Below are positions 1 through 25,554 of a DNA stretch of 54,473 nucleotides, piece by piece. How positions within the stretch are numbered: position 1 is the stretch's first letter; each line of letters opens with the position of its first letter. The notes under the pieces are model-generated. The model was not told the DNA's origin. It made no database searches and saw nothing but the letters and a program-made list of their open reading frames with translations. The translations under genes and the position numbers were made by a program. The stretch comes from an uncultured Pirellulaceae bacterium (GTDB taxonomy: Bacteria > Planctomycetota > Planctomycetia > Pirellulales > Pirellulaceae), in the NCBI GenBank assembly GCA_937921995.1, contig CAKZVF010000051.1, positions 1 through 54,473 of the forward strand, read 5' to 3'.

Positions 1-2
1 CC

Positions 3-176
3 GTCTGCGAACCATGCGAGCAGCAGGAAGTCGTCTCTGATTGCCAGTGCCAAGTCTGCGAAGAACCTGTCGCGTGTGAGGAGTGCAGTAACTGCAGTAA
101 ATGCTGCGGCTGCGGCGGAGCCAACATTAGGCCCAGTGGCGTTTTGTTCCGATTGAAAAATTGGCTACACCGCTAA
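3..176 (+). CDS. 3' end of a giant surface-protein paralogue (Cys-rich C-terminal tail), truncated by window edge
   Basis: The reading frame enters from the left edge and stops at TAA 174-176, leaving 57 residues. They contain 11 cysteines in pairs of the CxxC, CxC and CC type and end in GVLFRLKNWLHR. The tail matches the last residues of the 7996-aa protein at 519-24509, which ends [12 protein letters not shown]. The first 40 bases (1-40) are identical to 24337-24376. This is therefore the end of a second, upstream member of the same family, arranged head to tail with the complete copy. Nothing can be said about its N-terminal domains or length. A strong terminator follows 16 bases after the stop. 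The function is probably that of a secreted or surface structural protein, inferred only from its neighbour. Confidence 0.85.
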   Translation, partial: VCEPCEQQEVVSDCQCQVCEEPVACEECSNCSKCCGCGGANIRPSGVLFRLKNWLHR

Positions 177-518
177 TTTTTACCATAGATCTAAAGGCCG
201 AACGTTCTCGTTCGGCCTTTTTTGATAAATCGACAAAGTTTCACCCGCACAAGTCTACTTATCAGAAACATTTACCAATGCATAAAAACTTGCTCCACCG
301 TGAGAGGAGGCACACTTCGATAAACACCAACTATCTGGGAGTCTGTTTTCGATAAGACGATAGCGATTGTCGCAGGATATGGAGATCCTCTTTTCACTAG
401 CCACCAAATTCATTACCCGGATTCTCCTTTCGAAGACTTCTCATCACTTAAAACTTGACTATCACTAACTGATCGCAGGCCTCATCTTTCCGCAATCAGC
501 AGTGCCTTCTCGAACTGT
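177..518. other. 342-bp intergenic region between the two giant genes
   Basis: Apart from the terminator at 193-223 there is no convincing gene. A TTGACT hexamer at 455-460 could be a -35 element, but no acceptable -10 lies 16-18 bases downstream. No Shine-Dalgarno sequence precedes the GTG at 519. The promoter of the giant gene must lie here if the terminator works, but it cannot be placed from sequence alone. Confidence 0.5.
193..223 (+). terminator. Rho-independent terminator after the upstream giant gene
   Basis: A perfect 12-bp stem (193-204 with 209-220, core GGCCGAACG) closes a 4-base loop TTCT and runs into a T tract at 218-223. It sits 16 bases after the stop at 176 and should separate transcription of the two giant genes, so the downstream gene probably has its own promoter. 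Confidence 0.9.
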
Positions 519-3500
519 GTGAAAATTTCTTTCACCTGCCTTCGCGACTTTTCCTCACTCATCACAGGAACCTCAGTCGTGCAGCCTATTAATCAAAACA
601 ACAACTTCCTTTTCCAGTCCGTCTTCGAAGCTCTTGAAGAGCGCGTTCTTTTTGATGGAGTTCCAGACGCGGCATTTATTCTGCCCGCCGATGCGTCCGC
701 GACGGTTCCTGCACAGGTGCAGAACTTGCAGCAAGCCGACGCGGACCTTCCCCGCGAACTAATCATCGTCGATCCTGGTGTCGAAAACAGTGACGCTCTG
801 TTGACGGAAATTTTGGAAACCCACAAAGGCAGCGCGTTCGAAGTGCGCATGCTTGACGCCGATTCCGATGGTGTCCACCAGATCACTGATTTGTTGGCCG
901 CCAGCAACGGCAAGTACGACGCGATCCACGTGATCTCACATGGTGAACAAGGGCAAATCTCTCTAGGTAATACTGAACTTACCTCAGACTCATTCGGCGA
1001 CTACGTTGATCAATTGGCGTCTTGGAGTGGGGCGCTGACGGGCGACGCTGACATCCTCTTTTACGGTTGCGATCTCGCGGGCAACGCTGACGGTCAGTCG
1101 CTGATTGAATCAATCAGCGCGATCACCGGTGCGGATGTGGCGGCTTCTGACGACTTGACCGGAGCCGAAACACTCGGTGGCGATTGGGACCTTGAGTTCA
1201 CCGCAGGCGTCGTCCAATCGGAGGTGCTTTCGGCTTACGAGTATCAGGGCACACTCGCGTTGGCTGACGCAACACTGAGCATCGTTTCTGATGGAACACC
1301 GACTTGGGATTCCGACAACAATCCTGGAAACGATACCGATGGGGCCAACGGAATCATTCGATCGCATGATTCCCTGTTAATGGAGGTGTTCTATAACACC
1401 GATTCCGGCGGCGCGACCGATTTGAATTTTTCTTCGATTCTCCCTGACGGCTTGGTTTGGGATAACGTGCCAGCGGCCGCCGCCCTAGATTCGAGAACGA
1501 TGGTTTTCGATTCGGTGACCGGACTGCCAGGTGGCGATATGCGCGGGATCGTTGCCTATTTGCCTGATGTCGCAGGAACATTTACGTCAAGCGTCACGTT
1601 TGAGGCGCGGGCGTTGGGCGGTCCCCAGGGAATGGCACTCAATGATGTTCAATTCGAAGTAGCGTCCAATGAAAATCCCGTAGCGATTGAGACCGAATCA
1701 CATGACTTCGTGTTGTCGTCGGCTGCGAACATGGACATCCAACTACTTATACCTACTTTCCGAGGCGTGCATACCGATGCGGCGGGTGCGGTAGATGGCG
1801 TCGTCTACACATACTCTGTTGGCATTTTAGGGGATCACCCCACTCGTACTGGCACAGACGCGGTTAAAGGTTCTGCACCGATCGAGGACAATTTCACCTT
1901 CGACCTAGACTTGTCTAACGTCACTCCCAACGCAACGATCTTTGACTGGGGACCTTCTCTTGGTGGCAATGCCGAACTCGGTGGCGATGGAATCACGCGT
2001 AACTATGAACGATTCACAACGGCAGCCGGCGGCACGTCAACCTATTGGTCACGCAGTACATACCCTGCCGGGCAAACTGGCGAAGCCGGGTCATCTGTCT
2101 GGACGCCTGAGCACTCCACGCCCGATAGCGGTGACTGGACGATCATAAATTCAGCGGGTTCAGTATTCACCGCACAGGTCTCCGGAGCCGACACAACGGG
2201 CTCGCACTTTCCAGATTTTGGAGCAGGTAACCGCGTCCTGCCAGCAGGTGAGAATTGGTTCACCTCGGCACAAGTCTCCGTCTGGATTCCGATTGATGAT
2301 ATTCTCCCCGGAGCCGACGGAATTTCGGGAACACCGGATGACGGCGTTCTGACGATTACTCCTGAAATCACCAACTTTGATCCTGATGATGCTTACGGAA
2401 TAACCAATAACTTTGGTTCGGGTGTGGGTGAAATCGAAGACACGTCGAACAATGATTACGAACACACGATCTTCGCTTTCAACCAAGGTGGAGGGACGAA
2501 GTACAATTCAACAGCGGGGCACCCTACATCGGGAAGGTGGGTTGAAACCTCAACCAATTGGAGCGCTGGAGATGGAGAAACTTCCGTCGGTCACGTCTTT
2601 GATGCCCGCGTAACAAGCGGTAGAAATGGTGGCGTGCTCGCGCTCGAAGGCTCAATTTTTGGAGACAAATTTGACAACACGGCCGTAAAAATCACAGCCA
2701 ACTCATTGCCGTCGGCATCCGGTGACGGCTGGTCACGCGTATACGCTTCGGGTGGGCCAAACAATGGTACTCACCTAACCTACGGCACTGACTACATCAT
2801 CGAATTTGGAACCGGCGGTGTTGGTGGAGCGGCCGGTGGCTGGACCGATTGGGATTCTATGGGCGACGCGACGCTTGCCGATAACGAGTCCATTGGCGGC
2901 TATTGGAGTCAAGATCCTACAGATCCACTACTGGGAGGAAATGCCTACGCTGACGGTGTGCGGGATTCAATCACAAAATGGAGAATCATCGTACTAAGGG
3001 ATGTTGAGCCAGGCGAAACTCTGATTGGTCTTGTGTCTAATGAGACGATCGGGCACTCAACTCTCGATCCGGCGAACAACCCTGGCGGAAACATCATCGC
3101 CAACTTCCATGCCAGTTCGATTGGGTACTTACGCGATGACGCCAATCCGGCCAATGATTGGCGGACATCTGAGTATGATCCACTTAACAACAATGTTTAC
3201 TCTGGCGCGGCCAGCGGACTCAACTCTGGCGATCGACTTTGGATTGTTGACGCGAATGTCGACGTGGACAAAACCGTCGTCGATCTTGGCGCGGGCAGCA
3301 GTTATTTAGCCGGTTCAGCTGCTACGATTCAGCTGGAAGGAACCGTTACGATTCCCGGCCCAGACTCCGGTGCGCCGGCTCAAGACGTCTATATCACCGA
3401 TATGCTTCCCGCTGGCCTGACGGTCGTTGGTGGCAGTGCGTCACCCGCGTCAGGAACCACCTTTACCGCCGGCGATGGATCCACGATCTCAGTCCAAGCA

Positions 3501-6500
3501 GTTGAATACTTCATCCCCGACACCAACTCATGGAGCACAACTTGGAGCTACGGCGCGACTGGAATCCGATGGTTCTATGGAGATGTTCCGCTTAATACCG
3601 TGCTGCCAACGATGACCTTTGACGTTCTGATACCGTTCGACGCGAAGAACGGTGAGTCATGGACCAACACCGCGGTCGCTTCTTCGCCGTCAGACGACAC
3701 CACTGAAGAATTTCGCAGCTCTTCGGCAGGACTTGTCGCTGTCCAAGTCGCGGCGATGTCTGCAGGTAAATTTGTGGTGACGCCTTTGGTGCCCGAAGAC
3801 ACCACCATCGTTTACGAACTTGGAATCGCAAACGTCTCCGATGACAAAGAAGTTCCTTGGTTCGATCTTGTCGATATTTTGCCATACGATGCTGACTTTG
3901 AGGCTTCAAGTATTAACGGCGTCTACACCGACATCTCCGTCAGCGGATTAGATGCGGGGCTTGAGGTCTACGTGACAACAGCATCGGCATCCGCATTGGA
4001 CGCCGCCGATGGAACAGTCGATGGCTTTGCTGACCCAGGTACCGCCGCCGCTGGAGACGCTTGGTTCGTCCCCGAAGGTACCGGAATTTGGCAGTATACG
4101 CTGGCCGATGTACAAGCCGGAGTGCCGGGTGCTCCAACGGACGGTCAGATCACGGCAATTCGCGTGGTCAGCGACAAAGCAATCGACCCGTTGCTCGCAC
4201 CAGGCGAATCCACGAAATTCTTCCTTGAACTCACGCCCAATGGCAACGTTGGAATTCCTTCGGACACTTACACCAATAAATTTGCCGCCAGAACGGATCC
4301 GTCCGCATTGCCACTGCCTGTAACAAGTGCAGCGGTTACCGCTGTCGTTGTTGCGCCAGATATCGAGATCGAAAAAGAAGTCGCCCTTGATGAAACTCAC
4401 GCAAACATTGATCCAACCAACGACGCGCACTGGGGCGAAACGGTCAACTTCGATGACACAGACAAAGCCTACTTCCGTTTGAAAGTTACCAACACAGGTA
4501 CCGCTGATTTCCTCGGCGCGACCGTGACCGACAACTTACCGCCGGGAGCCACGTTTGTTGCCGGAACAGCGGCTGCTTCGGCAGGTGACTTCTCTGGGTT
4601 TCCTGCAACTTGGACTTTCGACCTCGCCGCGGGTGATACAGCGACGTTAATCTATCAGTTGGATGTCGACGATTCTGGAAACTACGTCAACTCAGCCGAC
4701 GTTGAAGCGACCGATCAGTGGGGTGAAACGGTAGACGACACTGACGACGCCGAAGCTAATTTCGTAACGGAAATATCGGCTGCCAAACAACAAACAAATG
4801 CCGTTCGCAGCACATCCAATCCCGACGTTTTCGAAGTCACCTACGAAGTTGAAATTCTTAACTCAAGCATCTTTGATCTTTCCAATCTGACGTTAACCGA
4901 GAATCTTGATGGAGCCTATGGTCCTGGTTTTGCTGGGATCTTGACCCCGCCAGCGGTAACCTCCAGCGTACTGACAGGTGCTGGAGTTGTGCCAACGGTT
5001 AACGGCGGTTACGACGGGGATGGGAACGACCAAGTTCTCAATGGAGATGGATTCCTTGAACCAGGAAATAGTGTCACTCTGACTTACACCGTTTTGGTGG
5101 ATCCGTTGCTGCTTGCTGATCCGGCCAACACGGTCAACCAGGTCGAAGCGGGTGGTCTCACCGGTGGCCCAGGTGGAACACTAACAACAGACCTCTCCGA
5201 TGATGGTAGCGATCCAGCGACGGACAACCCGGGCGCTCGTGGAGATGATGGAGCCGGCGGAACTGACGATCCAACGCCGCTGATTTTACCTTCGATTGAT
5301 TTGACCAAGCAAATTATCGGTTCACCTGTTCCGGCATCCAGCGGCGTCAATGGCAACTTCGATGTGACTTACGAGTTCATGATCGAAAACACCGGAACGA
5401 CAGACCTCGACAATATCTCAATGATCGAGGACTTCATCGCCAACCTTGGCGGAGCATTCCAGGGAATCGTAAATGCTCCACGAGTCACCATGACGACGGC
5501 GACCGACAATCCGGACTTCAACCCAGACTACGACGGTGATACCGACACCAATATCTTCCTCAACGCGCCGACAACGGACTTCTTCGAGTTCGGCGGCAGC
5601 ACGTCTCAGACGTTCGTGGGTACGCAGACTGTCCTTAGTGACATGGCCTACGTCATCGACCCAAATCAAACCGTCATGTTGATGGTTGATGCATTCGCAG
5701 ATGATGGAACTGGTGGGCCCCCGAACCCAGCGTCCAGGCATTTCCTTGGCTTCGCATCCTACGACATCGATGGCAATTTCATCAGCATGTACAACTACAG
5801 CAAGTTGTCCGGCTCTACTGACACAACGTTAGCGGCACCGCTGAATCCTGGTGATACGACGATTACGCTCACCGATGCGACAGGCTGGAGCAACGGTGCA
5901 ACATCGCACCGCCGCAGCATCGTGTGGTACGGGTACACCGATAGCACCGGGTACACTTACCCCGACTACACTTACACGCGCAACCAAGCGATCAATGCTT
6001 GGGATGCGGGCGGAGTATCTGGAAATGTCATCACGCTCAGCTCTCCTTGGAGCGGACCGGCACTGGCAGCGGGCGATGCCATTCGCAACACGAACTCGGG
6101 CGGCAGTTACCAGTACTCGCTTCTGTCCAATGGGCATATTGACGAGGTTGGTGGCACCTATGCCGCCAACATTGGTGGCGGTTTCATTCCCAATGGTGCT
6201 GGAGGTACGAACCTATGGCGACCGGGAACACATTCGATCCGTGCACTCGCATTAGCCAACCGCAACGGAAGTCCAGTCCAGCTGAACCTAACTGATTTTA
6301 AGATTGCTGCCCCCAACGATAATCTCTTGGAAGTGGGCCAGAAAGTGACCTTTGAGATCACTGTTGAGATTGATCCAGATAATCCAGGGGCGGTCTATGA
6401 CGGAATCACCGGAGACGGGGATGGAAGTCTGGAGAACCAAGCTTCGGTAACCGCAGAGGATCCTTACAACGACATTCCCGTCGCAGACACCTCAGATGAT

Positions 6501-9500
6501 CCGACCGACCCAACCGATGACCAATACGGCGATGACTCCGATCCCGATGACCCGACTTCTTTGTTGTTCCCGAACATCGAATTGACCAAGGCGATTATCG
6601 GCGCCCCGGTTCCTGCATCCAGCGGAACCACTGGCAACTTGGATGTCACGTTCGAGTTTATGATCACCAACAGCGGCAACGAAGCAGTCGAAAACCTCTC
6701 GTTTATCGAGGATCTTGCCGCTCAATACGGCGGTGCGTTCCAAGGCATCGTACTTCAAGGCGGAGCAGTCGCGACCACAACCTTTACCGATGCGACCAAT
6801 CCTATTGAGTTCAATTCAGGTTTCGATGGTGGAACTTCTGTTGCAGAACTGATTGACAATACTACCGGTGGTAGCGAATTAGCGATGGGCCAAACCATTG
6901 TCTTCCAGATCATCGTCGAAGTCGATCCTGACAATGCAACGGCGCTTTACACTGCCGGCCAATTGTCCAATCAAGCCAGCGTCTCTGGTACTGGCGTCAT
7001 GTCCGGTGTCATTGTCGACGATGACAGTGACGATCCATCGGACATGTCTAACAATGACAACGACGGAGACAACGACCCGGATGATCCAAACCTATGGTCA
7101 GTTCCGGTTATCGATTTGACCAAAACTTTGGTCGGCGATCCAGTTGCGGCATCCAGCGGCAACCAAGGCAACTTCGATGTGACCTATGACTTCACCATTT
7201 CCAACTTCGGTAACGCACCGCTGGACTCGATGTCATTGCTAGAAGACGTTGCCGCTCAGTATGGAGGGGCCTTTGTTGCGATTGTTCCCCAATCCGGTGT
7301 TCCTGCGTCGATTCAGTTGTCAACAGCGACCGATGCGCCTGAGATCAACGGCAGCTACGACGGCGGACTCTCCGACGCTGAAGTCTTCGATAACACCGGA
7401 GCCAATAGCAATGAACTTGCCATGGGCGAATCGGTTACGATCCGGATCATCTTCGAAGTCGATCCGAACGCTATCGGTGCTAACTTTGATGCCAACAATA
7501 ACTTGGTCAACCAGGCGACCATCTCGGGCAACCACGACGGAACCAGCTACAGTGACGATTCAGATGATCCAAACAACGCCAGCGACGTCGATCCAAACGG
7601 CGACAACAATGCCGATGATCCAAACACATTGTTCATCGCTGATGTTTCGGTCGCCAAAGAAGTCGTCGGAACACCGGTTGCGTTGGGCAACGGCAACTGG
7701 GAAGTAACCTATCAACTGGTCGTCGAAAACACGGGCAACGCTGCGCTTGATGTTTCACTCGAAGATGATCTCGACGCACAGTTCGGTGCCGCGTTTGTTA
7801 GTGCTGGTTCTTTAGCCATGATTGCGCAGCCAGCCGGCAATCCAATCACGCTCGATTCGGCTAACTGGGACGGTGATCTAGTGACCGAAATGGTCAATCA
7901 GACGCAGACCAACATTCTCGAAGGCGGCGACTTCTTTATCGTTCAAATCACGGTCGAGGTCGATCCTGATGCCAGCGGGACTTCGCAGATGCTGAACAAT
8001 CAAGCGACCGTGACTGGCGATGCCGTGGACGAGAACGGCCTCCCATTGACGGACTCAAATGGCGACCCTGTGGTCGTTGATGATCTTTCGGATACCGGTT
8101 CAGACCCTGAGACCAGTAACCCCGGAGAGAACGGAGATTCCGGTGGCTGCGATGACCCAACACCGTTGCTACTGCCAGATGTCGCGATCGCGAAAAGCAT
8201 CGTTGGCGATCCGATCCAGCTACCTAACGGGAACTTTACGGTTCAGTATCAATTTATCGTTGAGAACATCGGAACCACTTATCTGACTGACCTCCAGGTC
8301 GTCGAGGACTTTGCAGCCGAATTCGGAGCGAATGTATTCATTCAGCCAATCGCGCCACCAGCGGTCAACATTCTTCCGACCGATCCGACCAGCGTTGCGC
8401 CTGTTCGAAATATTCCTTACGACGGTGCCACCAACCCGAATCTACTCGATGGAGTTTCCGGATTGCTCGCCCCTGGTGATTCTTATGGAGTAGGCGTCAC
8501 CGTCGAGCTCGATCCAAACGGAGCTGGCGCGATTGTTCCGTTTGAAAATACAGCCGTGACAACGGGCAATGGCGCCAATCCAGACGGCTCTTCAATTACC
8601 GATGGATCCGGCAATCCCCTCGTGGTTACGGATGATTCCGATAGCGGCACCAATCCGAACACCGAAAACTCAGGGGAACCGGGGGATACTGGTGGAACTG
8701 ACGATCCGACTCCATTGTTCATCGCAGATCTCGATATCACCAAAGCCATCGTGGGTGGACCCACGCTACTGAGCAACGGTAACCACGCGATTGACTACTC
8801 GGTCGTGATCGAAAACACGGGTAGCGTTGATCTTGCGAACTTGAGTTTGATTGAAGATCTCCAATCTCAGTTTGGAGCCGGATTCCAGAACGCTTCAGCC
8901 TTGACAATCGGGACGGCACCTTTGGATCCGTCGTCGACGGTCACCTTGGAATCGGGCTGGGATGGCACGACGGCGCTCTCTGAAATGGTCGACCCAACAG
9001 CCGCTTCACTGCTTGCGATTGGCGACTCGTTTACGATCACCTTCACCGTTGAAGTCGACGCTTCGTCGCTTCCTGCGGCTACCGCTCCGGTCATATTCAC
9101 CAGCGAAGCTGCGTTCGCTTCAGCAACACAAGCCACCTTGCGAGAGGACTTCACCGATATCGTTGGCAATACCCCTGTCGACCTCAGTCTTGGTCCATTC
9201 GTATCTACTTTGGGTGGCGTTGAGATCAGTGGTACCATTGTGTCTAGTTTAGGCACGGGAGCCGAAACCCGCGCCGACGAAAATTCGTTCGCAGGAGGAG
9301 CCCCTGACCCAGGCGTATTCGCGATCCGCCAATCCGACGGCGGTTCAGCGAATTTACGAATCACTGTTCCCAATCCTGGAAACGCGATCGGTTTCGTTTG
9401 GTCCGATGTGTTCGATCCAGCCGGTGGCGCTCCCGCCGATCAGTGGTCGGCGTTCAAGGTAACCGCCAGCGATGGAACGGTTCTGTATGACCATGATGAA

Positions 9501-12500
9501 CGAGTCGACGGTGATCTTCCATCGAATTTTGCCCGCTTCATTGGTATCCAGGGAACGGGAAGCCAAGTCTACACCCACCTCGACATCGAATATGAGACTA
9601 GCAGCAACGATAACTGGACGATTGATCACATCTACGATTCCGGCAATCCCAGCAACGTAATCACTAACCAGATCGACGGTAGCGCCGACGCTGTTGACGA
9701 TAGTGGCAATCCCATCACCGATTCCAATGGCGATCCGGTAACGGTTACCGACCTAAGCGACAGTGGCAGCGATCCAGACGACGAAAACAACGGCGAACCT
9801 GGTGACACTGGAAGCCACAACGATCCGACTCCGTTGGTGATTCCAGAGGTCAGCCTGGTCAAAGACGCCGGTGACGCGGTTGCCAACGGAAACAACTGGG
9901 ACGTCCAGTTCACGCTGGTCTACGAAAACACCGGCACCGCAGATCTCAATAACTTGACACTGACAGATGACATCAGTAGCCAATTTGGCAACGCCTTTGT
10001 TTCGGTCAGTGGTTTGACGATTCAGAACTTCTCAGGCACCGGAACTGCGCCTACCGCAAACGGGGCTTGGGTCGGCGGTACAGCAAATATGCTTGTCGGA
10101 GGTGCCGCCGATGTCGGTGACTCGTTCGAAATCGTATTTACCGTCACGATTAATCCCGACAACATCGACAGCATCTCCGAAGCACTCAACAACTCGGCCG
10201 TCGCCGGCGGCGATGCTTTGGATGAAAACGGCGATCCGATTCTTGATGGAAGCGGAAATCCGGTGACGGTCACCGATGTTTCGGATGACGGAACCGACGT
10301 TAACGGCGAAAACGGTGACGACAATATGGATGGCACTTTTGCCAACGATCCAACGCCGATTATCATCGCCGATATTGCCGCCGCCAAAGAAGTCGTCGGA
10401 ACCCCCGTGTTGATTGCCAATGGCAACTACGAGGCGACCTATCAAGTCGTCATCGAAAATATCGGCACCGTTGATCTGGCCAACATTACCTTGGGCGAAG
10501 ACCTTATGGCACAGTTCGGCGCTGCCTATGTTGACGCTCACTCTCTGGCAATCGTTACACCTCCGAGCGATCCCTCCAGTACCGTCACCTTGGACGCCGC
10601 CAACTGGAACGGCGGAAGTTCGACCGAAATCGTCAACACGACGATTCCTTCGCTACTGGCCGTTGGAGATCAGTTTACGTTCGAGTTCACCGTTGAGATC
10701 GACGCGGCGCTGGCAACAGGCGTTCTGTTGAACACCGTCACCGCCGGTGGCAATGCTGTCGATGAGAATGGAAATTCGTACAACGATTTCAGCGGCAACC
10801 CAATCACTGCCACCGATGATTCCGACAGTGGAAACAATCCATCGACCGACAACGGTGGCGAGCCCAACGATTCTGGCGGTACGGACGATCCGACTCCGTT
10901 GTACATTCCAAGTATTGGTTTGGCAAAAGAAGCCGGTGACGCGGTTGCCAACGGTGACAATTTCGATGTTGAGTTCACACTCGTTTGGGAGAACACTGGC
11001 AGCGTCGCTTTGGATAACGTTGAGATCCTTGACGACATCGCAACTCAGTTCGGCAGCCAATTCGTTGCCATCTCCGGCCTAGCAGTACAAAACTTCAGCG
11101 GCACAGGATCCGCGCCGACCGCCAACGGCGGCTGGAACACTGGCGACACATCCACCAGTTTGATCAACAGCACCGGCCCACTGGACGTTGGCGATTCATT
11201 CGAAGTGGTCTTCACCGTCACCATTGATCCCGACGCAGGTGGAACATCAAGTTCGGGACTTGAGAATCAAGCGACATCCACGGGTGAAGCTCTTGATGAA
11301 AACGGCGATCCGTTGACCGACTCAAGCGGCGATCCGATCACGGCCACCGATGACAGTGACAACGGAACTGATCCCGTTGGAGAAAACGGCGAAGACGATA
11401 TGGACGGCACGTTTGGAAACGATCCAACACCGATCATCATCGCTGACATTTCGGTTGCCAAACAGGTTTCTGGTACGCCGACGTTGATGGCCAATGGTAA
11501 CTTCAGTGTGGACTATGAACTGGTCATTGAAAACAACGGCAACGTTGACCTTGCTGATCTGACGCTGGTGGAAGATCTTGCGACACAGTTTGGAACAGCG
11601 CTTGTCAGCGCCGGCAACATCACCCTAACGACGCCGCCAGCCAATGCGTCAAGTAGCGTCGTGCTTGATTCCACTTGGAACGGCAACTCCACGACGGAGA
11701 TGATCAGCCAACCAGCCTCAACGCTGCTGGCCGTTGGCGACTCGTTTGTCGTAACGTTCACCGTTGAAGTTGATCCAGACGCCGTCGGCGCTCCGGGGGC
11801 CCTAGACAACCAAGTCACCGTCGGTGGCGACGCGGTTGATGAAAACGGCGCTCCAATCACCAATTCAACAGGTACTCCGATTGTCGTGACCGATGATTCC
11901 GATAGCGGAACCGATCCAAGCACCACCAACCCTGGCGAAGACGGTGACACAGGCGGCAGCAATGATCCGACTCCGTTGCTAATTCCAGCGATCGGTCTGG
12001 CTAAAACAGCCGGCGACGCTGTTGCCAACGGTGACAACTGGGACGTCGAGTTCACATTTGTTTATGAGAACACAGGTACGGTCGACTTGACCAACCTGAC
12101 ACTGACCGACGATATCATGGCCGAATTCGGTAACGCATTCGTTGGCGTCAGTGGATTGTCAGTCGGGAACTTCAGCGGAACGGGAACGGCACCTGGAGCC
12201 AGCACAACTTGGACATCGGCAAACACGTCAGGCAATATGCTTGACGGAACCGGACAAGTAAACATCGGCGACAGTTTTGAAGTTGTCTTTACCGTAACGA
12301 TTAACCCCGACGGCATCGACAGTGTCTCACAAGGCCTTGAAAACCAAGGTACCGCAACCGGCCAAGGAATCAATCCAGACACCGGCGCGGTCGATCCAAG
12401 TTTGAACGCCACAGACACATCCGACAATGGAACGGATGTCAACAGCGAGAACGGCGAAGACAACGGAGATGGTACCTTTGGCAATGATCCGACGCCGATC

Positions 12501-15500
12501 ATCATCGCCGACATCGACATCGCCAAAGAAGTGTTTGGCGCGCCGACGATGCTGTCCAACGGCAACTTTGAAGTTGTCTACCAATTGGTGGTAGAAAACA
12601 CAGGCACCGTGAACTTGGCAAATCTGACGCTCGGCGAAGACCTTGCCACCCAATTCGGACCGGCCTACATCGATGCATACAATTTGACGCTAACTACACC
12701 TCCAGTCGACGCCGCCAGCAACGTTGTGCTCGACAGTGCCAACTGGGATGGAGATACCGTTACAGAAATCGTCAACACTGCAGTTCCATCGTCACTGGCG
12801 ATCGGTGATTCGTTCATCTTCCAGTTCACCGTCGAAGTCGATCCTGATGCGACGGGTACTTCGATGGCCTTGGACAACCAAGTCACAACCTCTGGTGACG
12901 CGGTCGATGATAGCGGCAACCCAATCAACGATTCCTCTGGAACACCGATCGTTGCCACTGACGACTCAGACAGCGGTACCGATCCTTCGGACACTAACAC
13001 TGGGGAACCCGGCGATACTGGTGGTAGCGACGATCCTACGCCGCTGAATCTACCGGCCGTTGCGCTGGCTAAATCAGCCGGCGACGCTGTGCCAAACGGA
13101 GACAACTTCGATGTCGAATTCACGTTCGTCTACGAAAACACCGGCACCACGCAGTTGACCAATCTTGAGTTGCTTGATGACATCGCCACCGAGTTTGGCA
13201 ACGCTTACGTTTCCGCCAGCGGCATCGCGGTACAGAATTTTGTCGGCACCGGCACCGCGCCGACGGCTAACGGCGCTTGGACCGGCGACACAACCCTGAA
13301 CATGATCTCCGGCGGCACGTTGGAAATCGGAGACTCCTTTGAAGTTATCTTCACCGTCACCATTGATCCCGACGGCGTCGACAGTCTTTCGCAAGGACTT
13401 GAGAACCAAGGCACCGCCAACGCGGACGGCATCGACAACAGCGGCAATCCAATCGCCGTCACTGACGAATCCGACAACGGCGTTGATCCTAACGGCGAAA
13501 ACGGTGAAGACGACGGCGATGGTACTTTTGCCAACGATCCAACACCCATCATCATCGCTGACATCAGCGTCACCAAGGAAGTAACAGGCACGCCGATCAA
13601 GCTGCCTAATGATAACTTCAGCGTGACCTATCAACTGGTTATCGAAAATACCGGAACCGTTGACCTCGCGAATCTTTCGTTGTTTGACGATCTGGCCAAC
13701 CAATTCGGCGGCGCGTTTGTCAGTGCTGGAAACCTGACACTTATATCCGGGCCATTTGCAGGGGGCAGCAATGTTGTTGTCGATTCGGCAAATTGGGATG
13801 GCGACGCCAACACAGAGATGATCAATCAAGCCGTACCCACAGCCTTAGTTGTGGGCGACAGTTACATCGTGCAGTTCACCGTTGAAGTTGACCCTGATGC
13901 CACGGGAACCTCAAGTGGTTTGGATAACCAAGTCACTACTGGTGGCGACGCGGTTGATTCTGCTGGCAATCCGATCAACGATTCTACCGGAACGCCAATC
14001 ACCACTACCGATGACAGCGACAGCGGCGCCGATCCATCAACGGATAACCCAACCGCTCCTGGCGACATGGGAACCACGAATGATCCTACGCCTTTGGAAC
14101 TGCCTGACCTGGCTGTTGGAAAACAAGCCAACGCAGTCACGATCGCAACCGACGGTGCCGGCAACGACCTAACCGGCTCGTTCGACGTTCAATACTTGGT
14201 TGTTCTTGAAAACACAGGTACGATCGAACTGACCAACTTGCAGTTGCTGGATGATCTTACGGCGATAGCAACCTTTGGTGACGCTTATGATCCGACACCA
14301 CTCTCAGGGCCTACCGACCGGTCTGGTTTTGTCACCGCGCCGGCGATCGTTAGCCATACATTGGCCAACCCCGGCGACCTTCCAACCTTGAACGCAGGTT
14401 TCCTAGGTGGCGGAGCTCAAACGGGGCTCTTCGATGGCACCAGCGGCACGTTGCAAACGGGCGAACAGATCGTTGTATCATTTACCATTCGCATCGACAG
14501 TGAAGAACTGATCGACGGAGACGCGACCGATGGATTGGCTCAGAACCAGATCCAAGGCACTGCTGATTCCGACCAAGGCCCTGTCAGCGATCTTTCCGAT
14601 GACGGCCTTAACCCCAACGGTGACAACGGCAGTGGCGGATCTAATGACCCAACACCATTCCAAGTTCCGCAGATTCGATTGTATAAATCGCACACTGATG
14701 CGGTCAACAATGGCGACGGAACATCTACGATCACCGTCACCCTGCGTGTCGACAACAGCGGAACCGTTGACCTTGCCAACTTAACGCTGACTGAGGATCT
14801 GGCAACGCAATTCGGTGCTGCCTTCATCAGCACGACAAACCCTGTGATCGACGCTACTGGTGCTCCCGGCAGTAACATTCCGGCGAACTTGATCAACCCA
14901 GCGTGGGCAGGGGATACGTCGCAAGACCTCTTCGATCCGGCGGTCACGTCGGAGACATTGATTGTCGGCGACGATTTCACAATCACCTTTGACGTTGTCG
15001 TTGATCCAGACCTTCTGGACGCCGATTCAGATTACCTCGAAAACACGGCAACGGTGACCGGCGATGGAACGAACTTCAATGGTGTGACCATCACCGTCTC
15101 CGATGACAGTGGAGCCGACAACGGAACGGGCATCGACACCGACGAACCAACTTCGGCCATTGTGCCTGAAGTCGCGATTGCAAAGACCGCAGGTGACGCG
15201 GTCGCCAATGGTGAAAACTGGGATGTGCCGTTCACACTGGTGATCGAAAACGTCGGCAGCGTGAACCTCGACATGCTGACGCTATTCGACGATGTCGCGG
15301 CTCAGTTTGGCGACGCTTACGTCGGGGCCAGTGGATTAACGCTACAAAACTTCGTCGGCAGCGGCACAGCTCCAACGCTCAACACTGCCTGGGAGGGCGA
15401 CAACTCTCTCACGATGGTCAGCGGCGGATTACTGGAACCCGGCGACCGTTTTGACATCACTTTCGTTATCACGATTGATCCCGATGGCATCGACAGCATC

Positions 15501-18500
15501 TCTCAAGTATTGGATAACCAAGCAACCGTCGCTGGACAGGGCGTCGATCAGATGGGCAACCCTCTGAATGACTCATCAGGCAATCCATTAGTGGCGGACG
15601 ATCTTTCGGATGATGGCACCGATCCAAACGGAACCAACCCTGGTGAAAACGGCGACGAAGGCACCAACGACGATCCGACGCCAATCGTCATCGCGGACGT
15701 AAGCCTGGCGAAGACCATTGTGGGTACGCCAACACTTTTGGCCAACGGTAATTACGCAGTTGATTACTCACTGGTCGCTGAGAACATCGGCACAACGGAT
15801 CTGGCAAACTTGAGTCTAACAGACGATCTAGCGACTCAGTTTGGTCCAGCGTTTATCGGTGTCAGCGATTTATTGTTGACGACACCGCCAGCAAATGCGA
15901 CCTCGTCAGTGACACTCGACCCAACAAACTGGGATGGCACCTCAAGCACCAACATGATCGACACGACGGCGACAAACGTATTGGCCGTTGGTGATTCGTA
16001 TGTTGTCGAATTCACTGTTGAGATCGACGCTAACGCGGCCCTTGGCTACTTGGATAACCAAGCCGTCACCGGTGGCGACGCGGTTGATCCCGATGGCAAT
16101 CCTTACACCGATTCAAACGGTGACACGATCACCGCAGAAGACGACAGTGATAGCGGAACCGAAACGGGTGATTCCAACATTGGCGAACCAGGTGACACAG
16201 GAACCTCGGACGATCCGACACCGCTGCACATCCCAAGCGTGGGTCTGGCAAAGGTCGCAGGAGATGCTGTCGCCAACGGTGACAATTTTGACATCACCTT
16301 TACACTGGTTTACACCAACAATGGAAACGTTGACCTGGACAACTTGACTCTGACCGATGACATCGCGTCTCAGTTTGGCAACGCATACGTCTCGGTCACC
16401 GGGCTAACGGTTCAGAACTTCGTTGGAACCGGCACCGCGCCGACCGCCAACGCGGCTTGGGAAACAGACACCTCCCTGTCGATGATCACCGGTGGAGCGG
16501 CCGACATGGACGATACTTTCGAAGTCGTCTTTACAGTGACCATTGATCCTGATGGCATCGACAATGTCTCTCAGGCACTGAACAACCAAGCCACCGCAAC
16601 TGGAGATGGATTGGATGAGAACGGAAATCAGTTGACCGATCCTTCCGGCGATCCGCTCACTGCGACCGACCAAAGCGACAACGGAACTGATCCAAACGCC
16701 GAAAATGGCGAAGACAATGGCGATGGAACCTTTGGCAATGACCCAACACCCATCATCATTGCTGATGTGTCAGTGGTAAAAGACATCATCGGAACACCCG
16801 TGGCGTTGGACAACGGCAACTTCGAAGTCACTTATGAACTGATCGTTGAAAACACAGGAACCGTCGACCTTGCGAACCTGTCATTGGTCGATGCGTTGCC
16901 GCCACAGTTTGGCAGTGTCTTCGTCAGTGCGGGCAACATCACTTTGATCACACCGCCTGCCCTCGCCGGTAGTAACGTCGTGCTGGACAGCAATTGGGAT
17001 GGCGACGCCACCTCTGAGATGATTGACCAGGCGGCTTCAACGCTTCTGGCAATCGGTGATTTCTACGTCGTTCAGTTCACAGCCGAAGTCGATCCTGACG
17101 CTTTATTGGCTCCGCCTGTTCCGATCGAAAACCAAGTCACCGCAGGTGGCGACGCGGTCGATGAAAACGGAGATCCGATTCAAGATTCGGCAGGCAATGA
17201 AATTACTGCGACGGACCTTTCAGACGATGGATCTGATCCAAACGGTGACAACCCCAGCGATGCGGGTGATCATGGCACCAGCGACGATCCTACGCCGCTG
17301 TTGATTCCAGATATCGGACTGGCAAAGTCCGCTGGCGATGCGGTACCTAACGGCGACAACTTTGACGTAACCTTCACGCTTGTTTACACCAACACAGGCA
17401 CCGTCGCGCTGGACAACTTGGAATTGATCGACGACGTGGCGGCCCAGTTTGGCAACGCTTACGTTTCGGCCAGCAACATCACGATCCAAAACTTCGCTGG
17501 TACAGGGACCGCGCCAACAGCCAACGCGGCTTGGAGTGCGGACACGACCCAGGACATGCTGGTTCTTGGAAACCTAGACGTTGGGGATTCGTTTGAAATT
17601 GTCTTCACCGTCACCATTGATCCCGATGGGCTCGATTCGATTTCGCAAGGTTTGGAAAACCAAGCCGTTGCAATGGCCGACGGACTCAACGATGACGGCA
17701 CAAAACTGCTGGACGATAACGGCGACGTCGTGACCGCTGACGACGTCAGTGACGACGGAACTGATGTTTCCGGCGAGAACGGCTCCGACAATGGCGATGG
17801 CATTGTTGGCAACGACCCGACACCGATCATCATCGCAGACGTCAGCTTGGCCAAGCAAGTCGTTGGTACGCCGACGCTGTTGGGCAACGGAAACTACGAA
17901 GCGGTTTACCAACTGGTAGTAGAAAACACAGGAACCGTTGATCTGGCCAACCTCACCCTTGGTGAAGATCTAGCGACTCAGTTTGGTTCGGCTTTCGTTG
18001 ATGCCTATGGCTTGACAGTGACGACTGCTCCTACCGATCCTGCAAGCAACGTCACCTTGGACACGGCTAACTGGAACGGCGATTCAAACACTGAAATCGT
18101 CAACTCGGCGTTACCTTCACTTTTGGCCGTCGGCGATTCGTTCATCTTCCAATTCACTGTGGAAATTAACGCGGCTGAGGCGACCGGAGTTCTCGAGAAC
18201 ACTGCCACTGCCGGTGGCGATGCTGTTGATGAAAACGGAACACCATTCACAGATTCCAGCGGTGACCCGATCACGGCCGACGACGACAGTGACAGTGGTG
18301 CCGATCCTTCAACTGACAACCCCAGCGATCTGGGCGATCACGGAACGAGCGACGATCCAACACCAATCTACATCCCGAGTATTGGATTGGCCAAAGACGC
18401 TGGTGACGCGGTGCCTAACGGCGACAACTTCGACGTTGAATTTACGCTGGTCTGGGAGAACACCGGAACAGTTGCTTTGGACAACGTCGAAATCTTCGAC

Positions 18501-21500
18501 GACATCGCAGCCCAGTTCGGCGGTCAATACGTTGGCATCTCCGGCCTGACCGTGCAGAACTTTGTCGGAACTGGATCAGCACCAACCGCCAATGCTGCGT
18601 GGAATACCGTGGACACGACCTCAAGCCTGGTCAACAGCACCGGTGCTCTAAATGTCGGTGACACATTCGAAATCGTGTTCACTGTAACTATTGATCCCGA
18701 TGCGAGCGGAACGTCCAGTCCTGGGCTTGAGAACCAAGCAACCACATCAGGCGATGGGCTTGATGAGAACGGCGATCCGTTGACCGATGGAAGCGGTAAT
18801 CCGATCACCGTCTGGGATGACAGTGATGACGGTCTTGACCCCGTCAATGAGAATGGCGAAGACGATGGCGACGGAACGTTTGGAAACGATCCGACTCCAG
18901 TCATCATTGCTGACATTTCCGTTACGAAGCAAGTTACTGGAACACCTGTATTGCTTTCCAACGGCAACTTCCAAGTTGCTTATGAGCTGGTCATTGAGAA
19001 CACCGGGAACGTGGACCTTGCGAACCTGACGTTGGTCGAAGACTTGAACGCTCACTTTGGCTCAGCATTGATCTCCGCCGGCGGCATCGCTCTGACGACT
19101 CCGCCATCGGACGCGTCGAGCAACGTATTGCTTGACGCAAGCTGGGACGGCGATGGTAACAACGAAATGATTGACCAAGTCCCTGCGACGCTGCTGGCCG
19201 TTGGCGATTCCTTCGTGGTTCAGTTCACCGTCGAAGTCGACCCTGATGCGGTCAGTGCTCCGGGAGCACTGGACAACCAAGTCACCGTTGGTGGCGACGG
19301 GGTTGATGACAATGGCGATCCGATCACTGATTCAACCGGCAATCCGATTGTTGTCACCGATGATTCCGACAGCGGAACCGATCCAAACGGCACCAATCCT
19401 AATGAAGACGGCGACACCGGAACCAGCGACGATCCGACACCGCTTTATCTTCCTGCGATCGGGCTTACCAAAGACGCCGGCGACGCGGTTGCCAATGGCG
19501 ACAATTGGGATGTTGAATTTACGTTAGTCTACGAGAACACCGGAACGGTCGACCTAACGAATCTGACTCTATTCGATGATGTTGCCGCTCAGTTTGGCAA
19601 TGCGTTTGTCAGCACCAGTGGGTTGTCGATTCAGAACTTCTCTGGAACCGGAACCGCTCCGGGAGCCAACTCTGCTTGGAACGGTGACAACACCCTCGAT
19701 ATGTTTGACGGAACTGGCCAAGCCAACATTGGCGATTCGTTCGAGATTACATTCACTGTAACGATTGACCCCGACGGCATCGACGCGGTTTCTCAAGGGC
19801 TGGATAACCAAGCCGTTGCCGGTGGCGATGGTTTAGACGGAAATGGAGATCCACTGGTTGATGGCAGCGGAAACCCCGTTACTGTCAACGACATCAGTGA
19901 TGATGGAATCGACCCCAATGGAGAAAACGGTGAAGACAATGGCGACGGAACGTTCGGCAACGATCCAACGCCGGTCATCATTGCCGACATCTCGGTCGTC
20001 AAAGAAGTATTTGGAACGCCTATCGCACTTGCCGACGGAACGTTCGATGTCACTTATCAAATGGTGATTGAAAATACGGGCACGGTTGATCTTGCCAATT
20101 TGAGCTTGACCGATGATATCGCGGCTCAATTCGGAGCACCGTTTGTCAGTGCCGGAGGATTAACGTTGGTCACTGGCCCAACCGATCCTGGCAGCAACGT
20201 GGTTCTGGACGGTGCGAATTGGGATGGCAGTGGCACAACCGAAATGATTGACCAGGCTGCGGCAACGTCGCTGGTCGTGGGTGACTCTTACATTGTTCAA
20301 TTCAATGTGATTGTCGACTTGGATGCAACCGGAACCTCGGAACTGCTTGAGAACCAAGTCCAAACCGGTGGCGACGGCGTTGATGAAGATGGCAATCTGT
20401 ACACCGACTCCAGCGGAAACACAATCACTGCCCAAGACGATTCGGACAGCGGTGCGGATGCCAATGGAGACAATCCTAGTGACCAAGGCGATCACGGCAC
20501 CTCGGATGATCCGACACCTCTGTTGATCCCTGACATCTCGATCGGCAAAATCGCTGGCGACGCTCGACCGCTCGGTGATGACTGGGTGGTGAATTTCCGA
20601 CTGTTTGTCGAGAACACGGGCACCGTGGCGTTAGACAACGTGACTCTGTTTGACGACATCTCCGCCCAGTTTGGCAACGCGTTCGTCGCGGTGGACAACG
20701 TAGCGATTGCTAATTTTGTTGGAACAGGAACCGCGCCTGGCACCAACCCGGCATGGACTGGCGATACGGCTTTGGACATGCTTGATGGAAGCGGGACACT
20801 GGATGTTGGGGACAAATTCCAAGTCGTCTTCCGCGTCACGATTGATCCTGATGGCATCGACAGCATTTCACAAGGCCTTGATAACCAAGCGACCGCTGGT
20901 GGCGACGGGATTAATCCTGATGGCACACCCATGACCGATAGCAATGGCGATCCGGTCAACACCGTCGATGACAGCGATAATGGAACGGATGTTCATGGTG
21001 AAAATGGCGAAGACGGTGGTGATGGCATTGCGAACAACGATCCAACACCAATCATCATCGCGGACATCTCTGTCGCCAAAGAGGCGGTTGGAACTCCGGT
21101 CCAGTTGGCTGATGGCAACTTTGAAGTCGTCTACCAACTTGTTATTGAGAACACCGGCACGGTTGATTTGGCCAACCTATCATTGGTCGAGGATCTGGCG
21201 ACTCAGTACGGCTCTGTGTTTGTGAACGCATCAGGTTTGACTTTGATCTCTGGCCCAACCGACCCTGAGAGCAGCGTTGTCATTGACACGGCGTTTGACG
21301 GGGCAAGCATGGCAGAGATGATCGACCAAACCGCAACTACCTATCTGGCGATTGGCGATTCCTATACCTTGCAGTTCACCACGGTTGTTGATCCTTCGCT
21401 GGCCGTCGGTCCGCTGACCAACCAAGTCACTACCAGTGGCGATGCGACCGATGAAGATGGACCGATTCTGAACAGCAATGGCAATGTAATCGTGGCAACG

Positions 21501-24500
21501 GACGATTCCGATAGCGGAGCTGATCCTAGCGACACTAATCCGGACCAACCGGGAGATACGGGAACCAGTGACGATCCAACGCCGCTTCAAGTTCCATCGG
21601 TTGGACTTGCGAAACTGGCTGGTGATCCTGTCACCAACGGCGACAACTGGGACGTGACGTTCACATTGGTTTATGAGAACAACGGCACCGTTGACTTGAA
21701 CAATCTCACCCTGACCGATGACATCGCGGCTCAGTTTGGCAATGCGTTTGTTTCGGCCACGGGACTAACCGTCCAAAACTTCACCGGCAGTGGCACCGCA
21801 CCGGCAGCCAATACGGCTTGGGAATCGGACACCACTGTTTCCATGATCTCAGGCGGACAAGCCGACATTGGCGATACGTTCGAAGTTGTCTTCACCATCA
21901 CCATCGACCCTGATGGCATCGACGATGCTTCTCAGGCGTTAGAAAATCAAGCCGTCGCCACCGGCGATGGTCTCGATGAAAACGGCGATCCAATTTTGGA
22001 TAGCTCCGGCAACCCAGTTGTCGCAACTGACGACAGTGACAACGGAACTGATCCAGATGGCGAAAACGGTGAGGACAACGGGGACGGAACCTTTGGAAAC
22101 GATCCGACTCCGATCTACATCGCAGACATCTCCGTTGCCAAGGAAGTCTCTGGTACTCCAGTGGCACTGCTCAATGGTAACTTTGAAGTCACTTACGAAT
22201 TGGTGATCGAGAACACAGGTACCGTCGATCTGGCGAACTTGACCTTGGTCGAGGATTTGGCGACTCAGTTTGGAGCACCGCTGGTCACTGCCGGCAACGC
22301 CACCATTATCACGCCACCGGCCGAGCTAAATAGCAATGTTGTGCTGAATTCAGCTTGGGACGGAGCCTCCGTCACCGACATGATCGACGCTTCAGCGGCG
22401 ACCTACTTGGCAATCGGCGATTCTTATGTCGTCAGCTTTACAGTTGAAGTCGATCTGGACGCCGGTGGAACCTCAGCACCGCTGGACAACCAGGTTGTCA
22501 CAGGTGGAGATGGTGTTGACAGCAATGGAGATCCAATCCTTGACTCTAGCGGCACGCCAATCACGGCCACTGACGACAGCGACAGTGGCACTGACACCAA
22601 CGGTACTAATCCGGATCAACCCGGCGACACCGGTAGCAGCGACGATCCAACGCCGCTGTTGATTCCCGATGTTGGTCTGTCAAAAGTGGCTGGCGATGCG
22701 GTTGAAAACGGCGACTACTTCGATGTGACGTTCAGTTTCACTTATGAGAACACGGGAACGGCAACGTTGAACAATCTTTCGATCGTTGACGATGTCGCGG
22801 CACACTTTGGAAACGCTTATGTTGCCGCTTCGGATGTTACCATCGGAAACCTAACGGGCACCGGAACTCTTCCGACTGCTAACGGCAGCTGGGCCGCGCT
22901 AACGTCAGCCAACATGCTGGTCGGTGGTGAATTGGAACCGGGTGCATCGTTTCACGTCGAATTCACAGTGACCATTGATCCTGATGGCGTCGACGGCACC
23001 TCGCAGGCCTTGGTCAACCAAGCCCAAGCCGGTGGCGATTTTCTGGGCCCTGATGGAACGCCGACGACGGTTAATGATCTTAGTGATGACGGCACCGATC
23101 CAAACGGTGACAATATCACTGGCAACGATCCGACACCAATAATCATCGCCGACCTTGGAATTGCAAAGACGATTACCGGCACGCCGGTACTTCAGGCCAA
23201 CGGCAATTACTTGGTAAACTACCAAGTCGTTGTTGAGAACACCGGTACGGTCGATCTTGGCTCCATGAGCTTGATCGAAGATTTGGCGACTCAGTTTGGA
23301 GCAGCCTATGTTAATGCCAGTGGATTAACGTTGACGGTTTCTCCAACAGATTCTGGCAGTAACATCGTCGTTGACGGCTCTGGCTTCAACGGAGGATCGT
23401 CGACAGAAATGTTGGATCAAGCGGTCAACAACGTGTTGGTCGTCGGCGATTCGTTCACGATTGAGTTCACCGCCGAGATTGATCCATTGGTGGTCACCGA
23501 AAGCCTGTTGAATCAAGTCGAAGGTACCGGCGATGCGGCCGATGCCAACGGCGATCCCATTAACGGAGCAGACGGCAATCCAATCATCGCTGATGATGTT
23601 AGCGATAGCGGTACCGATCCTAACGGACAAAACTCTGGCGATCCGGGCGACAATGATTCGCATGACGACCCAACACCGTATACGCCTGAGCAACTGCCTC
23701 TGTCAGAAATCTCGGGTACGGTGTTCGTCGACGCCGACAACGATGGCACCTACGAGATCGGTGAAAACGGTATTGAAGGTGTTGAGATTACGCTGATCGG
23801 CACCGACATTTATGGCAACGCAGTCGAACTGACCGTGTTGACCGACGGCAATGGAGACTATGAGTTCACGGGGCTTAATCCTGGCAACTATCAGATTATC
23901 GAAGGGCAACCTGAGGGATACGACGATGGCCTGGACGAAGCCAACGCAGCGTTCTCTGTTGGCAACGATCAAGTCAACAATGTTGTCTTGGGCTTCGATG
24001 AGAATTTTGGCGGAAACAACTTTGGCGAACGGCTTCAGGGCGCCTCGGGCAACCCATCGCGGCTTCCGCCACTGCTACCCTTTGGTGGTGGCCAACGGTT
24101 AAACAGTAGCATCAGCAATTTTCTTGGTGGACCTGGCCCGATTTACTCTGGCGTTCCAATCGCTTCCAACGGCAACCCGCTAACTTTGGACAGCGGCCGA
24201 CCCGTCACCGGCGGCTATGCAACCGAGTTCGCGACGCCTGATGCTGCCGCCGATTGCGGTTGTCCTGAAGTGGTCGAAACACCATGCGAAGTCGAGGTGC
24301 CGTGTGATCCGTGTGCCGAGGAAGTGATCCAAGAGGCCGTCTGCGAACCATGCGAGCAGCAGGAAGTCGTCTCTGAATGCGAGTGTCAAACTTGTGAAGA
24401 ACCTGTCGCATGTGAAGAATGTAGCGATTGCTGTAATTGCTGCGGCTGTGGCAGTGTGGGCCGAAGCGGCGGATTCCTCTTCCGTTTCAGGAACTGGCTG

Positions 24501-24509
24501 AATCGTTAA
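519..24509 (+). CDS. Giant surface protein: LEPR-XLL motif, DUF4347, about 32 DUF11-type repeats, SdrD_B-like domain, Cys-rich tail
   Basis: This is a 7996-aa protein with a GTG start and no visible Shine-Dalgarno. Residues 36-47 ([12 protein letters not shown]) are a variant of the LEPR-XLL motif found near the N-terminus of giant planctomycete and proteobacterial proteins; no classical signal peptide is seen. Residues about 79-245 match DUF4347, with SHG (H141) and YGCD (C184). Residues about 250-900 are beta-rich and unassigned. DUF11-like segments start near residue 910 and become regular units of about 180 aa from residue 1587 to 7717. The C-terminus has an SdrD_B/Cna-B-like domain (about 7729-7841) and a tail with 17 cysteines. 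The Asp/Asn-rich linkers resemble calcium-binding loops. It is probably a very long calcium-stabilised surface fibre or adhesin. The domains are recognised with good confidence; the role is inference. The start could be further downstream, but the motif at 36-47 favours this one. Confidence 0.93.
753..1254 (+). other. DUF4347 domain in the giant protein, with His/Cys pair
   Basis: Residues about 79-245 read as DUF4347: a start of the LIIVDPGV type, a strand leading into HVISHGEQG, a strand leading into [10 protein letters not shown], then [12 protein letters not shown] and GGDWDLEF. H141 lies at 939-941 and C184 at 1068-1070. The order of beta strand-SHGxxG and then beta strand-YGCD resembles the catalytic His and Cys of clan CD (caspase-like) peptidases. 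Protease activity is my inference; the family itself is of unknown function. Confidence 0.8.
5572..6315 (+). other. About 248-aa domain inserted into DUF11 unit 1
   Basis: The unit 1 strand order is interrupted after [10 protein letters not shown] and resumes at [13 protein letters not shown]. The insert includes [38 protein letters not shown] and [17 protein letters not shown]. From memory it resembles a beta-rich module of marine surface or tail-fibre-like and polysaccharide-associated proteins; this was not confirmed. It might bind a glycan and display on the rod. Confidence 0.6.
9079..9655 (+). other. About 190-aa jelly-roll-like domain inserted into DUF11 unit 6
   Basis: After the [11 protein letters not shown] strand of unit 6 the sequence switches to [48 protein letters not shown] and [11 protein letters not shown], then returns to [16 protein letters not shown], the normal next strand of the unit. 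The F-T-S-x-A-A-F opening and the NWTIDHIY end are typical of exported beta-sandwich domains often found in PEP-CTERM proteins. It lies in a different loop from the insert in unit 1. Confidence 0.6.
23703..24041 (+). other. SdrD_B/Cna-B-like domain near the C-terminus of the giant protein
   Basis: [44 protein letters not shown] and [11 protein letters not shown] are the classical strand sequence of SdrD_B/Cna-B domains (carboxypeptidase-regulatory-like fold), with a DxDNDG calcium-type loop. These domains act as stalk or cap modules in surface proteins. Only one copy is present, between the DUF11 array and the Cys-rich tail. Confidence 0.85.
24250..24509 (+). other. Cysteine-rich C-terminal tail with conserved terminal motif
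   Basis: Seventeen cysteines lie in about 60 residues, spaced as [26 protein letters not shown] and CCGCG, and are followed by [12 protein letters not shown] and the stop. The same arrangement, ending GVLFRLKNWLHR, closes the neighbouring paralogue at 3-176. The rest of the protein has almost no cysteine. It could be a disulfide or metal cross-linking region plus a sorting or anchoring motif; this is inference, and it matches no sorting signal I can name. Confidence 0.7.
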
Positions 24510-25379: not shown

Positions 25380-25554
25380 CGACGACTTATCCTTGGTCTT
25401 GGGGCGATCGTATAGCGGTAAAAGCGGGCATCTTAGCAAAATCATGGGGCGTCATAAACAGCGTGGAGATTTCGGGAGTGCCAAAACGGTCAACCGCCAC
25501 GTGCGGCCGTAAAAAGCTGTCTTTACCCATGCATGTCAAAATATTCGGATTCTT

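Follow-up and report, generated by a model that had tools for sequence, protein, structure and literature searches.

A probable tandem pair of giant surface-type protein genes in an uncultured Pirellulaceae bacterium, and a candidate export module for the family

Is the incomplete gene at the left edge of a planctomycete contig the end of a second giant, standing in tandem with the giant gene that follows it, and by what route would proteins of such size leave the cell? The question is raised by contig CAKZVF010000051.1 of an uncultured Pirellulaceae bacterium (GenBank assembly GCA_937921995.1), whose whole length of 54,473 nucleotides is referred to here as the window. An earlier note had proposed that the window begins inside one giant surface-protein gene and continues with a paralogue of 7996 codons. 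From the comparisons below it is judged fairly probable that the left edge carries the 3' end of another member of a giant family, which lies in tandem with its downstream neighbour by local duplication. The two copies would be separate transcription units with tails that have probably been exchanged, and the downstream product would be an Ig-like rod with a caspase-like head and a Cys-rich tail; the steps of export and function are inferred.

The junction at the left edge of the window

The upstream gene is visible from position 3 to 176 of the forward strand (57 codons and a stop codon), is open to the contig start, and encodes a Cys-rich tail ending in VLFRLKNWLHR. It cannot be extended in the source genome (329 contigs, 77% completeness), because the window is the entire contig (C51) and starts at its base 1. 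The 57 residues share 73% identity with the C-terminus encoded by the 7996-codon open reading frame (ORF), and the alignment score is 249, compared with a maximum of 81 in 2000 shuffles that kept the composition. The homology of the two Cys-rich ends is therefore real, but to call them nearly the same, as had been done, is slightly too strong, since about half of the last 20 or so residues differ.

An intrinsic terminator, consisting of a hairpin and a T-run, follows the upstream gene on the same strand (193–223, hairpin 193–220; -21.3 kcal/mol, z -6.4), so that the terminator claimed earlier between the genes is supported. The hairpin is not listed by a simple terminator scan, and a promoter scan of positions 1–700 found none. 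Because of the terminator, the copies are taken to be separate transcription units. The suggestion of alternate expression gained nothing convincing from a scan of positions 1–1300 for inverted repeats of at least 14 bases, the sole switch test made, in which a single repeat of 19 nt at 79% complementarity was found.

The same-genus genome G018 has a syntenic counterpart on its contig C40. The giant on this contig shares its last 24 residues with the upstream tail, belongs to an ORF of at least 725 residues with DUF11 repeats that is cut by the contig start, and is followed by a terminator related to the hairpin at 193–220 (z -4.0). Beyond it lie orthologues of the window genes from 24546 to about 35000, with identities of 77–94% (60–72% for one small ORF). 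The first of these, directly after the tail of the C40 giant, is the orthologue of the DUF4261 gene that is convergent to the giant in the window (24546..25445, reverse strand). An extra ORF of 808 residues in that G018 region gave no counterpart in the comparison with the window. Because the ending, the related terminator and the downstream genes are shared, the end of the upstream gene is, by sequence comparison, orthologous to the end of a protein that has DUF11-type repeats and a length of at least 725 residues. The finding of the same ending on such an ORF makes it unlikely that the upstream gene encodes a short unrelated protein sharing only the last residues, the outcome that the earlier note had named as fatal to its proposal. 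At this locus, the window has an additional giant relative to what is visible in G018.

At the DNA level, the upstream tail is a mosaic. Over bases 1–116 it agrees with the downstream copy at 99 positions, the first 40 bases being exactly those of 24337–24376, and its end together with the terminator follows G018 (110/142). The mosaic suggests gene conversion between tandem copies as the simplest reading. The end of the contig at its left edge would likewise be accounted for by an assembly break within a long run of identity.

Giant-to-giant junctions are visible in another same-genus genome, G019, where a family tail is followed by a family head after about 0.6 kb on two contigs (C116 and C39). 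Three heads (on C121, C39 and C116) and as many tails are seen in this genome; two of the tails precede the C39 and C116 heads, and the third is on C42. The same repeats are present in the C39 gene and in the tail that precedes the C116 head (81% amino acid identity over 178 residues), and the end of the C116 contig matches C42 (97% over 141 bases); because of these two matches, the simplest order would be a row of three giants, C121–C39–C116, the first of which is divergent to the export module described below. A smooth row is opposed by the ORF on C42, which also aligns with the C121 giant (51% over 294 residues), by the tail before the C39 head, which is nearer to the C116 giant (69% over 83 residues) than to the C121 giant (37% over 82), and by the chimeric look of the C42 contig edge. 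At this edge (locus L105, 1–1229), a stretch resembling a Tc1/mariner-type transposase is fused to the giant's frame, and the edge is likely chimeric or foreign.

Because the three G019 heads form one fully supported clade (100/100), the row is, as judged from the head tree, a recent local amplification that arose apart from the window's pair. Its neighbours differ in their inserts, with 19 DxDGDG stretches in the visible part of the C39 giant and 3 in that of the C116 giant, which also has DUF11-type domains; in this row the earlier expectation of different inserted domains in neighbouring copies is borne out. Outside the genus, Rhodopirellula sp. Ww632 (L255) has a DUF4347 giant whose frame is preceded, at a distance of about 170 bases, by the end of a 3199-residue ORF that is open at the edge of the locus.

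Rows of giant genes are already known in principle. Apilactobacillus kunkeei, a lactic acid bacterium, has five consecutive giant surface-protein genes (Giant1–5) with recombination in the cluster (PMC12863079); in the accessible parts of that report, Giant1–4 have beta-solenoid heads and the domains differ from those of the window's giant. Among planctomycetes, three giants of Stieleria varia bear the tags 17480, 17490 and 17500 in the portions available, which suggests that they are neighbours (PMC7717043, PMC5177795). The tandem rows show how giants may multiply, namely by local duplication, tail exchange, and change of the repeats in between.

The giant product and a candidate route out of the cell

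The downstream giant gene occupies 519..24509 of the forward strand, an ORF of 23,991 bp with 7996 codons if counted from GTG 519. The GTG at 579, which is preceded by AGGA at 566–569 and leaves 7976 codons, is the likelier start. A motif of 13 residues common to the family, which contains LEERVLFDG, is encoded at 621..659. The general form of this motif, LExRVLFDG, presumably resembles LEPR-XLL; the first 300 residues gave no NCBIfam match at E 0.001, hence no LEPR-XLL N-terminal domain was recognised in this test. Neither before nor after the motif is there a strongly hydrophobic, signal-like stretch (best 15-residue mean 1.39).

Residues 81–238 (759..1232, forward strand) form a DUF4347 domain (PF14252), with a score of 162.5 bits against a gathering cut-off of 24.6. 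The model of the head has a caspase-like fold (mean pLDDT, the predicted local distance difference test, 78.5; 82–97 in the blocks of residues 41–180), and most of its top Foldseek matches are caspases with E about 1e-4. The low TM-scores with caspases, about 0.3–0.45, count against this assignment. H107 (in SHG) and C150 (in YGC) of the 213-residue head stretch are invariant in all 55 sequences compared. The sole DUF4347 chain in PDB matches the head by sequence at E 0.12, and PDB 9qpe is the fourth structural match of the model. This entry is Tce1/PA0256, given as a DUF4347 protein (PMC8262886) and as a putative cysteine protease with a His-Cys dyad (PMC13323088) in the accessible text of the two papers. 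As described there, Tce1 is a small cargo of the type VI secretion system and not the head of a giant; the likeness to the window's head lies in DUF4347 and the His-Cys pair. The head is thus modelled as a caspase-like (clan CD type) fold with the residues of a His-Cys dyad, i.e., a putative peptidase.

The rod is made up of 31 repeat units of the DUF11/DUF7507 type (5265..23663), delimited at DPTP-like borders, 28 of which are 161–188 residues long. Two unit types, A and B, largely alternate, with mean identities of 57% for A–A, 63% for B–B and 41% for A–B (based on 14 units of type A and 11 of type B, the remaining 6 being left out). A model of two units consists of two Ig-like beta-sandwiches and is closest to integrin alpha chains, with biofilm-associated protein and clumping factor A further down, all at low TM-scores. 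The repeats are followed by an SdrD_B-like domain found by domain search (23709..23927) and by a C-terminal block (24081..24506) that has an 11-residue motif before SGRPVTGGY, a Cys-rich spacer and a terminal motif of 11 residues, and that defines a tail family in the same genus. The protein has 1260 Asp/Glu and 122 Lys/Arg residues. Among the matches listed, its closest named records are Pirellulaceae metagenome-assembled genomes and Mariniblastus sp.

Planctomycetes commonly carry giant genes, and those of more than 15–20 kb, for example in Fuerstia NH11 and S. varia, have been read as encoding large proteins of adhesion type (PMC7717043, PMC5177795). The window's gene is of this size and of this repetitive type, with DUF11, SdrD_B and Ig-like repeats, and its product is predicted to be a surface-type protein. 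The accessible portions of those papers describe cadherin-like, Tandem-95 and other domains, and do not mention a DUF4347 head, a DUF11 rod or a Cys-rich end.

Divergent to many DUF4347 heads are genes for a TolC-like channel, a short SecA-like ATPase, an HlyD-type adaptor, a GAF-HlyD protein and an M50-HlyD protein. The same kinds of genes make up the secondary SecA_DEAD/HlyD/GAF/M50 module of Kamneva, Poudel and Ward (2015), for which the accessible text calls the broader role completely unknown and names no substrate (PMC4452313). The terms 'giant', 'cadherin', 'DUF4347' and 'large protein' do not occur in the main text of that paper, and searches of an open-access library listed no paper linking DUF4347 giants to the SecA_DEAD module.

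Within the genus, module genes are near 11 of the 29 heads whose flanks were analysed. These 29 are mostly of the LExRVLFDG type, 38 of the 67 head rows having been left out, and several of the flanks are shorter than 6 kb. The eleven include G022:C56, where only the TolC gene is visible, G018:C205, which has no SecA-like gene, and G016:C64 and G016:C154, with other orders or directions. When the SecA-like genes are taken as the starting point, 8 of 13 high-identity clusters (at least 52%; 14 matches, the two on G020:C166 being taken as one) adjoin a DUF4347 giant, four do not, and G007:C212 is counted in neither class. Among five SecA-like genes at 41–44%, those on G016:C154 and G021:C95 adjoin a DUF4347 giant, that on G000:C253 does not, and G020:C114 and G027:C54 fall outside this count. 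In ten stretches around SecA-like genes at 33–38% there is no DUF4347 head. On G015:C20 a SecA-like gene in two pieces (44% and 36%) has a DUF4347 head on either side.

Outside the genus, at least two module markers lie within about 10 kb at 22 of 54 DUF4347 loci, with a SecA-like gene at 13 of the 22; the record titles of these positive loci name Planctomycetota, Gammaproteobacteria, Deltaproteobacteria, Myxococcota and Campylobacterales. The two-marker counts include the GAF-HlyD and M50-HlyD queries, which share their HlyD part and whose outside matches are at about 21–30%. The 79 loci of relatives were taken from the best 80 of 405, a selection that favours heads resembling the window's. 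In a separate sample from other genera of the order, an M50-HlyD gene is found within 9 kb (at 0.7–8.6 kb) of 3 of 6 DUF4347 genes, where about 0.1 would be expected by arithmetic from module number and genome size, not from a flank control with random genes. Loci with a DUF4347 giant beside the module include L098 and L188 (both in G001), L129, L128, L121, L190, L191, L244 and L260.

Because this adjacency is repeated, the DUF4347 giants are candidate cargo of the SecA_DEAD/HlyD/M50/TolC module. Giants of 5,000–8,500 residues in planctomycetes would thereby obtain a candidate exit, and the orphan module a candidate cargo; this link, rather than the rows of giants, is the newer point. A giant might be made without a normal signal peptide, pass out through SecA_DEAD, HlyD, GAF-HlyD, M50-HlyD and TolC, and carry its DUF4347 head as a recognition or self-cleaving part, while the Cys-rich tail might be cross-linked or anchored at the surface and the rod might serve adhesion. 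A bolder proposal is offered tentatively, with judgement leaning somewhat against it: the module may be a dedicated exporter of giants with caspase-like DUF4347 heads from Planctomycetota to Gamma- and Deltaproteobacteria and Myxococcota. In this view, the head would be an entry ticket that removes itself once export is over, and tandem multiplication of giants would take place behind a single exporter, for which G019 is the example.

Several observations weigh against the export link. No module is visible beside the window's own pair, and the modules seen in the source genome (C323, C253 and C103) have no DUF4347 head beside them. Four of the 13 high-identity SecA-like clusters (G021:C6, G023:C213, G000:C323 and G018:C207) lack a DUF4347 giant beside them. 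Furthermore, no module is visible near 18 of the 29 same-genus heads (some with short flanks), fewer than two markers are present at 32 of the 54 outside loci, and 9 of the 22 positive loci have no SecA-like gene within reach. These last three counts are also what would be expected if the giants took a conventional Sec or type I route and the adjoining module served other cargo. Such a route is considered unlikely, if not negligibly so, in view of the adjacency repeated in several phyla, the lack of a strongly hydrophobic stretch at the N-terminus, the four GGxGxD matches in 7996 residues, counted without regard to place, and the HlyB-type ABC signature (SGGQ, then R/Q/K and QR), which occurs at 2 of 79 loci as a short pattern without an HlyB profile search.

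Spread of the family and the body of the upstream gene

DUF4347 heads are present in 27 of 28 same-genus genomes, with 1–5 matches each, and in 6 of the 57 genomes sampled elsewhere in the order. Family tails are present in 11 of the 28. Among 119 sampled genomes of the taxonomic family (at least four in the genus), only the source genome matched the tail, and a search of named genomes with one tail sequence gave no match. By these searches, the head is widespread and the tail is so far seen in this genus only.

A family tail stands directly upstream of 3 of the 29 same-genus heads, i.e., in the window and twice in G019; the motif scan for tails misses the window's own, which is counted from its reading frame. 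In the closed genome G001, three tailed giants with frames of 7368–7791 residues are more than 0.8 Mb apart. From their positions, the tandem copies look like local duplications and most copies are not in tandem, so that the idea of an expanding family holds for lineage-specific duplication but not for tandem growth as the general arrangement. Resolution is weak in the tail tree, where 3 of 21 inner branches are starred, and the conflict of this tree with the head tree is only a hint of tail exchange. On G016:C64 (L248, 9878–13447), a DUF4347 frame of 1190 residues is followed by an overlapping tailed frame of 4153 residues, possibly a frameshift within one giant.

The tandem reading of the window has to be weighed against G018, in which a single giant precedes the DUF4261 gene and the visible parts (5 heads and 4 tails) contain no giant-to-giant junction. 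The 6 kb before its C414, C450 and C205 heads are without a giant, as are the 6 kb after all four tails without a head. The C362 head, at a contig edge, is preceded by a VKOR gene and another gene, neither a giant, and the 467 bases that precede the C394 head, 75% identical to their C362 counterpart, likewise show a non-giant gene. With their near-alike DUF4347 heads and the same kind of upstream gene, C362 (L304) and C394 (L101) may represent a duplicate locus or a strain mix in the assembly. The DUF4261 gene occurs in only 3 of the 28 same-genus genomes (the source genome, G018 and G019), with two TAA codons inside the G019 match; beside that match (C111) no giant was recognised, and the region is rearranged.

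A further point against is that the body of the upstream gene is unseen beyond its 57 codons, so that two giant paralogues in tandem, as the earlier note had them, stand as far as a family of giants with tandem copies is concerned (G018:C40 and the two G019 junctions), but not for the upstream copy itself. With so little visible, the upstream gene could be a short protein or a relic carrying the family tail only. A relic of this kind is present in a relative: on G007:C80 (L147, about 4036–4782), a degraded remnant of a giant's 3' end has the tail on a frame of 128 residues, the same strand of this contig being without a giant ORF. In addition, a marginal match (E 0.004) lies in a 182-residue frame at G001:C1:3815089. 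These are, however, the only 2 frames shorter than 600 residues among 24 tail matches (the contig-cut match of the window left out), and the G018 counterpart, which shares the upstream gene's ending, is of DUF11 type and at least 725 residues long, which makes a short gene improbable. That the junction is an assembly artefact, with the contig edge copied from the downstream repeat, is very improbable: the exact identity of the first 40 bases lies at a contig edge and G019:C42 offers a chimeric-looking edge in a relative, but bases 41–176 differ from the downstream copy, the final portion agrees with the G018 giant in its end and terminator, and tandem junctions are present in G019. Under the reading of a second giant, the upstream product is expected to be alike to the downstream one.

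Of the three DUF4347 heads examined in the source genome (the window's own, C318 and C17), none led to a contig that would supply the start of the upstream gene. C318 and C247 were set aside as candidates since orthology pairs both with the same gene on G018:C394: the C318 head is 90% identical to the C394 head, and the 3' flank (90–96%) and the tail of C247 match the C394 gene. By this pairing, C318 and C247 appear to be pieces of a single, different giant. The C17 head was rejected as it falls outside the clade of LExRVLFDG heads.

Divergent to the C318 giant is a gene for a VKOR-thioredoxin fusion (L041, 397–1932, reverse strand), an enzyme of a kind that forms disulphides, next to a member of a family with Cys-rich tails. 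The VKOR gene before the C362 head of G018 repeats this arrangement, and a 33% relative lies near a DUF4347 gene of Rhodopirellula baltica (L297).

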